Shown here in pieces: positions 4,614 to 33,942 of a stretch of 33,942 nucleotides of DNA. The notes below the pieces were generated by a model. That model did not search any database. It was not told where the DNA came from and saw nothing but the letters and a program-made list of their open reading frames with translations. A program made the translations under genes and the position numbers. Position 1 is the stretch's first letter, and every line of letters starts with the position of its first letter. The stretch is taken from positions 1-33,942 of the forward strand of contig DYJU01000019.1 in NCBI GenBank assembly GCA_020722985.1, written 5' to 3'. This DNA comes from Candidatus Methylomirabilis sp. GTDB lineage: Bacteria > Oederibacteriota > PGYV01 > DYJU01.

Positions 4614-5419
4614 GGTTTTGCTTTCTCCAATTCTTCCATTGCTTTTAGATAATGCTCATCCTGAGGATCCCTGTAATGCCATAATATGTTATTCTCCATA
4701 AAAGATACACCTTTTCCTTTTATAGTATGGGCAACTATACATTTAGGTTTTTTGTTTTCAGTATTTTGTAATACTTTTTTCAATTCTTCATGATTATGCC
4801 CATCAACTTCAAAAACATCCCAACCAAATGCTTTCCATTTATCAGCCAGATTTGATAATTTTATTGTATTCTCACAAAAATCCAGACTTTGCATTTTATT
4901 ATGGTCTATAATAACTATTAAATTATTTAATTCATAATGATTTGCAAATAATGCTGTTTCCCATACAGAACCTTCATCGCATTCCCCATCGCCAATTATT
5001 GTAAAAATTCTGTGATTCTGATTGTTGATTTTCGCAGCCAGAGCCATGCCTGATGCTATACATATCCCATGACCCAAAGAACCTGATGAGACTTCTACCC
5101 CAGGAACGTTTTTATATGATACATGACCAAAAAGATAACTTCCATCCTTGCAATATGTGTCTAAAAATTTTTCATCAAAAAATCCTTTTTTTTGCAAAGC
5201 CACATACAAAGCCAATCCGGCATGCCCTTTGCTCAAAATAAGTCTATCTCTTTTTTCCCATTTTGGATTTTTACTATCCAATTTTAAAATTTCGGAAAAT
5301 AACACAGCAATAATGTCTGCAACTGAAAATATTGAGGCTATATGCGAAGAATGTGAATTATGAATGATTTCCAGCGTTTTTTTTCTTATTTCCCAGGCAA
5401 GTTCCCTTGAATTCATCAT
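4610..5419 (-). CDS. Transketolase N-terminal subunit (split transketolase, alpha half)
   Basis: This 269-residue thiamine-diphosphate-binding half carries SKGHAGLALYVAL (63-75), GSLGHGICIASGMALAAK (113-130) and the TPP/Mg motif GDGECDEGSVWE (143-154) ending with the NN at 165-166. His26 and the GHG at 116-118 fit the conserved active-site histidines of the family. Two adjacent ATGs are possible starts (5419 and 5416) behind AAGGTG; the second has the better spacing. It lies 6 bases after the GT2 gene and overlaps the C-terminal subunit by ATGA, so both halves should be made in equal amounts. Split transketolases of this kind occur both in central metabolism and in deoxysugar gene clusters. 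The operon context favours the second. Confidence 0.88.
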   Translation of the reverse strand: MMNSRELAWEIRKKTLEIIHNSHSSHIASIFSVADIIAVLFSEILKLDSKNPKWEKRDRLILSKGHAGLALYVALQKKGFFDEKFLDTYCKDGSYLFGHVSYKNVPGVEVSSGSLGHGICIASGMALAAKINNQNHRIFTIIGDGECDEGSVWETALFANHYELNNLIVIIDHNKMQSLDFCENTIKLSNLADKWKAFGWDVFEVDGHNHEELKKVLQNTENKKPKCIVAHTIKGKGVSFMENNILWHYRDPQDEHYLKAMEELEKAKP

Positions 5420-5425
5420 ATCACC

Positions 5426-6358
5426 TTAAAAATTTATCCTTTTTTCTTCAATTACCAGGGGTCTTTTAATTATGCGAGTATTTATATTTAATATATATTC
5501 CCCAAGAAAACCTATAAAAAATAATTGAACTGCTCCAAAGAATAAAATTAATATTATTATTGGAGCAATCCCTATAGGAAAAGTAAACCAGAAAATTAAT
5601 TTTAAAATAATATAAATAATAGCAAGTATGAAAGATAAAGCCGAGATAATAAATCCTCCTATTGTTGCAAATCTTAATATAACTTTTGAATAGGATGTTA
5701 TTCCCAGCATAGCCAGATCATACAAACTCCACCAATTACTCTTTGTTTTCCCTGCTCTTCTTTTTTGTTGTTCATAAACAATATTTTTTCTTTTAAACCC
5801 TAACTCTGCAACAATCCCTCGCAAATAAGGCCTGATTTCATCCAATTGCTTTAAAATTTTTATAAAATCTTTATCATATAAACCAAAACCTGTAAAATGT
5901 TCAATATGCTCAATATCTGTAATATTTTTTATAAATTTATAAAATAATGTTCTCATCAAATAAATTATAAAATTTTCTTTACTCTTATTTTTTATCCCTG
6001 CAACAATTTTATATCCCTTTTCCCATTCCCTCACAAAATCTATTATTAATTCAGGTGGTTCCTGAAAATCCGCAGATAATAAAATTGTGCAATCCCCTTT
6101 TGTTTGCATTAACCCATAAAATGGCGATCTTAAATATCCAAAATTTTTGATATTGTAAATCGCCTTAATCCTTTTATTTTTTTTACATAATTTTTCTATG
6201 TTTTTTCTTGTATTATCAGTAGAACAATTATCAATAAATAAAATTTCATAATTATAATTTTTCAATCTTGTTGTAAAAATTTTAACTATCTCTTCTGCTA
6301 ATGGAATTACATTATCCTGTTCATTAAAAGTTGGAATTAATACACTTATTTTTCGCAT
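5426..6358 (-). CDS. GT2 glycosyltransferase, polyprenyl-phosphate sugar synthase type (GtrB/ArnC/DPM1-like)
   Basis: This 310-residue protein begins with a GT-A fold: VLIPTFNEQ (6-14), the nucleotide-binding DNCSTDNT (43-50) and DFQEPPE (97-103), the counterpart of the DXD-region D(L/F)Q(D/E)PPE of dolichyl- and undecaprenyl-phosphate sugar synthases. Two long C-terminal helices follow (about 232-258 and 261-290), as in GtrB and ArnC. Such enzymes move a sugar from a nucleotide donor to a polyprenyl phosphate on the cytoplasmic face, producing the donor that GT-C enzymes use outside. Three GT-C enzymes are encoded in the same locus. The start has a strong AAGGAG six bases upstream, inside the end of the epimerase gene (13-base overlap). 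The sugar it loads is not readable from sequence. Confidence 0.87.
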   Translation of the reverse strand: MRKISVLIPTFNEQDNVIPLAEEIVKIFTTRLKNYNYEILFIDNCSTDNTRKNIEKLCKKNKRIKAIYNIKNFGYLRSPFYGLMQTKGDCTILLSADFQEPPELIIDFVREWEKGYKIVAGIKNKSKENFIIYLMRTLFYKFIKNITDIEHIEHFTGFGLYDKDFIKILKQLDEIRPYLRGIVAELGFKRKNIVYEQQKRRAGKTKSNWWSLYDLAMLGITSYSKVILRFATIGGFIISALSFILAIIYIILKLIFWFTFPIGIAPIIILILFFGAVQLFFIGFLGEYILNINTRIIKRPLVIEEKRINF

Positions 6359-33446: not shown

Positions 33447-33522
33447 TCCTCGGTAGCTCAGTTGGTAGAGCAGGTGGCTGTTAACCACCCCGCCGCAGGT
33501 TCGAGTCCTGCCCGAGGAGCCA
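33447..33522 (+). tRNA. tRNA-Asn (anticodon GTT)
   Basis: A complete cloverleaf can be drawn: acceptor TCCTCGG/CCGAGGA, a D-arm with AGCTCAGTTGGTAGAGC, anticodon stem GGTGG/CCACC around loop CTGTTAA with GTT at 33480-33482, and T-arm GCAGG-TTCGAGT-CCTGC. CCA (33520-33522) is encoded. It is the only feature in its stretch on the plus strand before the accessory segment. Confidence 0.97.
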
Positions 33523-33545
33523 GTCAATACTATCTACTGCAACGA

Positions 33546-33685
33546 GAGTGGCATGCACCACTCACGGAGTTTACCATATATCCGAATGAAATGAATGATA
33601 TATGGCTCGGGTGCATGCCCTGAACCCGAACGAAGTGAGCATGCCCTATACTTAAACATAGTGAGTGGTAGAGGGTGGTTCAGGG
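33546..33685. repeat. Nested inverted-repeat element downstream of tRNA-Asn
   Basis: Within 140 bases I find several perfect inverted repeats: GGCATGCACC/GGTGCATGCC (33550-33559, 33610-33619), CCATATATC/GATATATGG (33574-33582, 33597-33605), CCCTGAACC/GGTTCAGGG (33618-33626, 33677-33685), ACCACTCAC/GTGAGTGGT (33557-33565, 33661-33669) and GAGTGG/CCACTC (33546-33563). An 8-base arm with one mismatch, CCCTATAC/GTAGAGGG, lies at 33644-33675. G+C is 55 of 120 at 33541-33660, far above the surroundings. No T tract follows, so a plain terminator is unlikely. Confidence 0.8.
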
Positions 33686-33786
33686 TTAACAGTGCAGGGG
33701 ATTTAAGATATATAGTTTGATTAGGCGAAGTAGTTCTACCATTTTAGGTTATGAGCTATTTTCCCTTAAAAGAAAAGGAATAAAGA

Positions 33787-33942
33787 ATGCCTGGTTGTTT
33801 GATAGAAATATTTGAAGATAAAAAAGTTATAGAGAAGATACAAAGACGTTTGCCATATCTGTTCCAACTCGCGGAATTGGAAAGCTAAAGAGCAGGCAAA
33901 ACAGGAATGGAAGTTGGTTCAGTTCGTGAGAGAATAATAGTT
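33787..33942 (+). pseudogene. ThaI-like type II restriction endonuclease, N-terminus, with in-frame stop
   Basis: From an ATG at 33787 (AAAAGGA upstream) the frame reads MPGCLIEIFEDKKVIEKIQ, then RRLPYLFQLAELES, then TAA (33886-33888), then RAGKTGMEVGSVRERIIV to the window edge without further stops. From memory, ThaI-family endonucleases have a LPYLFxLAELESSRAGKxGMEVGS-type block here, so the TAA falls exactly where a serine is expected and the reading frame is otherwise kept. This looks like a nonsense mutation or a base-call error in a restriction gene; the rest lies outside the window. Family assignment is from recalled similarity over about 50 residues. Confidence 0.55.

Follow-up and report, generated by a model that had tools for sequence, protein, structure and literature searches.

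Two questions are raised by an open reading frame that runs into the end of a contig with a single stop codon in its middle: is it the start of a restriction endonuclease gene, and if so, how did the gene arrive and how was it broken? In this work, we analyzed a stretch of 33,942 nucleotides (hereafter the window), which is the entire contig C8 of a draft assembly (2.13 Mb in 122 contigs, 84% complete); its last base, 33942, is the end of the contig. The reading that we consider likely is that the window ends with the start of a horizontally acquired ThaI restriction endonuclease gene, which was disabled when codon 34 became a stop and belongs to a unit that is decaying nuclease first. The features discussed below are listed in Table 1, in which G001 is the sister genome and L008 is the nearest relative at the DNA level.

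Table 1. Features at the right end of the window, in window coordinates.
Feature	Position	Strand	Remarks
tRNA-Asn (gtt)	33447..33522	+	left flank conserved in G001, whose contig breaks at the tRNA 3' end
Leader between the tRNA and the ThaI gene	33523..33786	+	pieces 33523-33551 and 33684-33723 also found directly behind a tRNA 3' end in L008
Palindromic REP-like stretch (132 bases)	33552..33683	+	missing from the otherwise matching leader of L008
Head-like stretch resembling the ThaI units of relatives (GTTATACGCCATTT...)	33748..33776	+	some of those relatives are attC-flanked
ThaI-family type II restriction endonuclease gene, 5' end (52 codons)	33787..33942	+	PF15514, 3ndh_A, and whole-genome profile search; cut by the contig end
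In-frame TAA (codon 34)	33886..33888	+	at the second serine of the ELESSRAG block of the family

Translation from the ATG at 33787 gives 33 residues (MPGCLIEIFEDKKVIEKIQRRLPYLFQLAELES), the TAA, and 18 further residues (RAGKTGMEVGSVRERIIV) up to the contig end. These 52 codons are the first quarter of a gene of approximately 210 codons, and the TAA, located 54 bases from the end of C8, is the only lesion among them. With an X placed at the stop, residues 8-51 match positions 1-44 of the Pfam ThaI family (PF15514) at 72.8 bits (E 4.1e-20), which is above the curated cut-off of 25 bits. When the whole genome was searched with the same profile, the fragment scored 72.5 bits. Because the match continues across the TAA, both sides belong to one gene. 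The fragment is also matched by the PDB chain 3ndh_A (3NDH; E 1.3e-17) and by the PADLOC model REase_II PDLC03575 (E 7.4e-20), and no match was found in NCBIfam, either for the fragment or for the intact nuclease of a relative (L013). The other 23 rows beside 3ndh_A are TAL-effector repeat proteins; we rejected these, as their E values (down to 3.5e-9) are sums over repeats and no single stretch passes. The original prediction, made from the letters alone, had proposed a ThaI-type endonuclease start with one in-frame stop, in a frame that is protein-like on either side of a TAA within a conserved block, and had named a search of the joined translation against ThaI-type families as a check. The Pfam and PDB matches and the alignment of relatives bear this out, with the stop lying inside ELESSRAG. 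A second check named there, reading on to the right for a methyltransferase and the remainder of the gene, would pass beyond the contig end.

ThaI is a restriction endonuclease that originates from Thermoplasma acidophilum and has the specificity CGCG. Its catalytic core residues presumably lie beyond residue 60, and the sequence in the window stops at residue 52. Judged from the sequence as assembled, the gene is a broken member of the family and not a working enzyme, given that the TAA at codon 34 and the contig end after codon 52 leave no complete frame of approximately 210 codons. The stop would yield a peptide of 33 residues with the rest of the enzyme missing, so the nuclease would not be made.

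A scan of GTDB genomes provided 145 relatives confirmed by tblastn, of which the best 80 were fetched. These 80 bear many bacterial and archaeal names and share 63-96% of residues with the fragment. A nuclease frame of at least 195 codons was found in 61, the gene is broken in 15, and 4 reach contig ends (two of the latter, L038 and L079, have a stop or frame change already before the end). Among the 15 broken relatives, L015, L024, and L052 have a premature in-frame stop with the alignment kept to the end of the protein, and the others are frameshifted, deleted, or cut short. Searches of plasmid and phage collections gave no ThaI match, and viral contigs gave one locus (L092).

The nearest DNA relative, L008, is recorded as Armatimonadetes and is 92.6% identical to the window over 175 bases. 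From codon 5 to codon 52, six synonymous and two non-synonymous differences separate the two, and the stop accounts for one of the latter; at codons 1-4 every residue is different, and L008 has no ATG there. This excess of synonymous differences points to a protein that was under selection until recently. A single substitution would turn 23 of the first 52 codons of the nearest relative into a stop, so it is unremarkable that another relative, L067, has its stop at the same codon 34. The L067 locus (5001-5951) comes from a Methanoperedenaceae record of 1.9 Mb; its nuclease match is confined to the first 65 residues, and approximately 74 residues are missing from its methyltransferase. Since L067 is only 72% identical to the window in DNA (over 163 bases) and its nuclease and methyltransferase are otherwise wrecked, the common stop position is most simply explained by two independent events.

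A lone stop so near the end of a contig might reflect an error or a minority variant. We find it improbable, though deserving more weight than any other rival, that a base-call or assembly error produced the TAA and that the organism has a working ThaI restriction-modification system of which the first 156 bases were assembled. Such an error would fit a lone lesion in conserved sequence, 54 bases from the end of a contig in a 122-contig draft, and a family in which intact copies form the majority (61 of 80). However, breaks are common among the fetched copies (at least 15 of 80, a number that may itself include errors), the stop recurs at this codon in L067, and the same genome already harbors a decayed ThaI unit on another contig (C98). 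A real loss of function after horizontal gain is the most likely explanation.

The decayed unit on C98 was found by a DNA-level search, in which a ThaI remnant of 33 bases (88% identity) was detected. Next to it is a frame of 140 residues that encodes a methyltransferase (PF01555) without approximately 144 residues, including the SPPY motif, as judged by alignment with L013. The unit (L003:6592-7220) consists of short leftovers of the ThaI nuclease and the methyltransferase frame; beside it are a frame that we take to be recA-like and a run of N, and the sequence flanking the N run is presumably REP-like. A ThaI remnant of 49 codons in a Nitrospirota record (L057:5001-5147) lies a few hundred bases upstream of a frame that we also take to be recA-like, so a recA-like neighbor is common to these two remnants. 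One genome therefore contains an older, nearly erased ThaI unit (C98) and a lightly damaged one (the window). Searches of the assembly with the Pfam model and with a full-length protein brought up no other ThaI nuclease fragment. The search for an intact cognate methyltransferase in the assembly returned only the C98 remnant and four matches that are 30-41% identical to the ThaI partner. The earlier suggestion of a decaying restriction-modification system is supported indirectly by the C98 unit, the broken state of 15 of the 80 relatives, and the lack of any other ThaI piece in the assembly.

The start of a ThaI gene is detectable in only 1 of the 45 genomes of the phylum, namely, that of the window, and in none of the 25 better genomes. 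In the sister genome, the only other member of the family, there is no match to PF15514. Given this rarity and the absence from the sister genome, together with the 92.6% identity to a copy recorded in Armatimonadetes, the ThaI unit of the window was most likely acquired horizontally. The gain of the unit, a nuclease of approximately 210 codons with a methyltransferase directly behind it, was probably fairly recent.

The surroundings of the gene suggest where the unit may have entered. The original prediction described a tRNA immediately upstream and a jump in G+C, and took both as fitting an island boundary. A tRNA is indeed nearby, but 264 bases separate it from the ATG. The G+C content does rise, from 0.265 in the part of the window left of the tRNA to 0.41 in the leader and 0.365 in the ThaI part, but the peak of approximately 0.50 belongs to the tRNA and the start of the palindromic leader, and these two account for most of the step. 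The folding of the leader is equaled or surpassed by 3 of 200 shuffled sequences (z -3.0). Four other genomes of the phylum share 24-28 bases of the palindrome core (33613-33640), and a fifth has a match of 74 bases at 80% (45 genomes searched, own included).

As for the boundary itself, the sister genome is conserved up to and including the tRNA-Asn (94% over 124 bases), and the neighboring protein, which we take to be rhodanese-like, is 75% identical over 321 aligned positions. The contig of the sister genome begins at the end of the same tRNA-Asn, such that both assemblies break at or soon after it, as would be expected where strains differ. In L008, the first leader piece is part of an 82% match that includes tRNA sequence, and the second matches at 87.5%. 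A group I intron (RF00028; L008:4453-4898) ends just before the tRNA 3' half of L008, directly upstream of its ThaI leader; ARAGORN did not report this intron-adjoining tRNA on L008. The break at the tRNA in the sister genome and the position of the L008 leader are in favor of a boundary, but no second tRNA 3' end (18 bases, at most one mismatch) was found in the assembly, and the right side of the junction lies beyond the contig end. A tRNA-edge island for the ThaI unit is thus only suggestive, and entry at this edge would be one step of the proposed history. Among the best 80 of the 145 relatives, ARAGORN placed a tRNA within 150 bp upstream of the ThaI gene in two, L014 on the same strand and L043 on the opposite one; in L018, a tRNA follows shortly after the methyltransferase. 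A general preference of ThaI units for tRNA genes was considered on these data and discarded, as the cases are too few and the comparison is post hoc.

The same junction bears on the idea that the contig terminates in a chimeric join, its final few hundred bases coming from another organism of the metagenome, and that the host has no ThaI gene here. The composition shifts after the tRNA, the sister contig stops at exactly the same tRNA, a ThaI gene is detectable in a single genome among the 45 of the phylum, and the closest DNA, at 92.6% over 175 bases, is recorded as Armatimonadetes; all of these would suit a chimera. Yet the L008 leader pieces likewise directly follow a tRNA 3' end; a natural junction at the end of a tRNA would account for both cases, and strain variation there for the contig breaks. 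If C98 is rightly binned, it also shows that the lineage hosted a ThaI-type unit. We regard a chimera as unlikely and retain the reading of a broken, horizontally gained gene.

The order of decay can be approached through the methyltransferase. In most intact relatives fetched, a methyltransferase of the N6_N4 type starts directly behind the nuclease. At 58 of the 61 loci with an intact nuclease, the methyltransferase match spans 257 residues or more, any internal gaps included, in one stop-free frame; the three others are L010 (141 residues), L073 (two frames), and L009, at which a second methyltransferase confounds the count. Of the 15 broken relatives, 6 retain one methyltransferase match that is at least 293 residues long (L024, L044, L045, L051, L052, and L054), and in the other nine the methyltransferase is damaged, weak, cut, or absent within the stretch searched. 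This pattern, from a small sample that is uncorrected for sequencing errors and shared ancestry, agrees with nuclease-first decay. A protected cell tolerates the loss of the nuclease of a restriction-modification pair but is killed if the methyltransferase goes first, and a nuclease-first order is expected for this reason. By analogy, the unit in the window would have decayed after its arrival, with the nuclease lost before the methyltransferase.

Two remaining explanations concern the frame itself. The stop might be tolerated, with a restart at Met41 or readthrough keeping the nuclease at a low and easily controlled level; an in-frame ATG is present seven codons past the TAA, and the stop position recurs in L067. 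We consider this very improbable, as L067 is otherwise wrecked (a nuclease match of 65 residues and a methyltransferase minus approximately 74), which indicates decay, and 61 of the 80 relatives have no premature stop. Met41 is moreover a conserved protein residue in nearly all relatives and therefore gives no sign of a restart site. A chance open frame unrelated to ThaI is refuted by the matches across the stop (E 4e-20 and 1e-17) and the 92.6% DNA identity to a relative over 175 bases.

How such units travel may be indicated by attC-like sites, which are located at the ThaI restriction-modification unit on both flanks in L005 and L009, upstream in L024 and L054, and downstream in L006 and L016 (L016 and L054 are recorded as archaea). 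L019 and L025 have similar flanks by a looser scan. At a threshold of 9, the rule-based scan found sites in 4 of 78 upstream and 4 of 73 downstream regions, compared with 1 of 426 and 0 of 293 control regions from the same loci; a threshold of 8 gave 4 and 4 (controls 2 and 0), and thresholds of 10 and 12 gave none anywhere. Some of the sites had already been spotted by inspection when the rule was drawn up, which makes this contrast post hoc. A scan requiring perfect outer arms found two sites only, both far from ThaI, and a loose scan was noisy (5 loci upstream and 14 downstream, many not attC-like by eye). Because the alignment of seven attC-like sites was uneven, the rule-based scan with controls was used instead of a covariance model.

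In the last 3 kb of the window, the rule-based scan found no attC-like site, and the copy there does not qualify as an integron cassette. Nevertheless, the head-like stretch resembles the L024 head more closely than all 2000 of 2000 shuffles and all 4786 of 4786 other stretches of the window, and the same holds for L007; for the heads of L006, L011, L016, and L054, an equal resemblance is found in 1-7 of 2000 shuffles and in 0-9 of 4786 stretches, with these five heads besides L024 having been chosen by eye. Matches to an integron integrase in the genome itself were below the cut-off and were dismissed, as all 14 control genomes match as well. According to Ghaly et al. (2022; PMC9668308), phage-resistance proteins that work through DNA methylation or restriction make up 8.3% of archaeal cassette proteins with predicted function, so restriction-modification cassettes in archaea are already known in kind. 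Among the titles and abstract openings returned by a literature search in which ThaI itself was seldom a search word, none is on ThaI decay or ThaI cassettes. We tentatively raise the possibility that bacteria and archaea exchange ThaI restriction-modification pairs as two-gene integron cassettes, that the one in the window settled behind a tRNA, outside any integron, before its nuclease was lost, and that C98 represents an earlier round of gain and loss.

Taken together, the window and C98 make a small case of gain and loss of restriction-modification genes, in which a single genome holds two decayed ThaI units that differ in age. The decay in the window most likely reflects nothing more unusual than a mobile defense system falling apart after its arrival. 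The family has a patchy distribution across many bacterial and archaeal phyla, is often broken, and has attC-like sites beside 6 of the 80 fetched relatives; this broader pattern is modest, and it could be used to test how selfish restriction-modification pairs move and which gene dies first.

Compared with the known enzyme (PF15514, 3NDH), the fragment follows profile positions 1-44 across the stop, but its gene is interrupted at codon 34 and only the first quarter is in the assembly. The unit of L013 (Ca. Methanoliparum) has both genes intact, a nuclease of 210 aa followed by an N6_N4-type methyltransferase of 307 aa, and shares 85% of residues with the window over the 52 codons. In contrast, the window has the stop and, as the contig ends, no visible methyltransferase, and the leaders differ. 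The L008 copy resembles that of the window in having its leader pieces behind a tRNA 3' end and in being broken too. It differs in that its nuclease lacks the codon-34 stop and ends after approximately 119 codons beside frames that we take to be transposase-like, its tRNA adjoins a group I intron, and the palindromic stretch of the window is absent.
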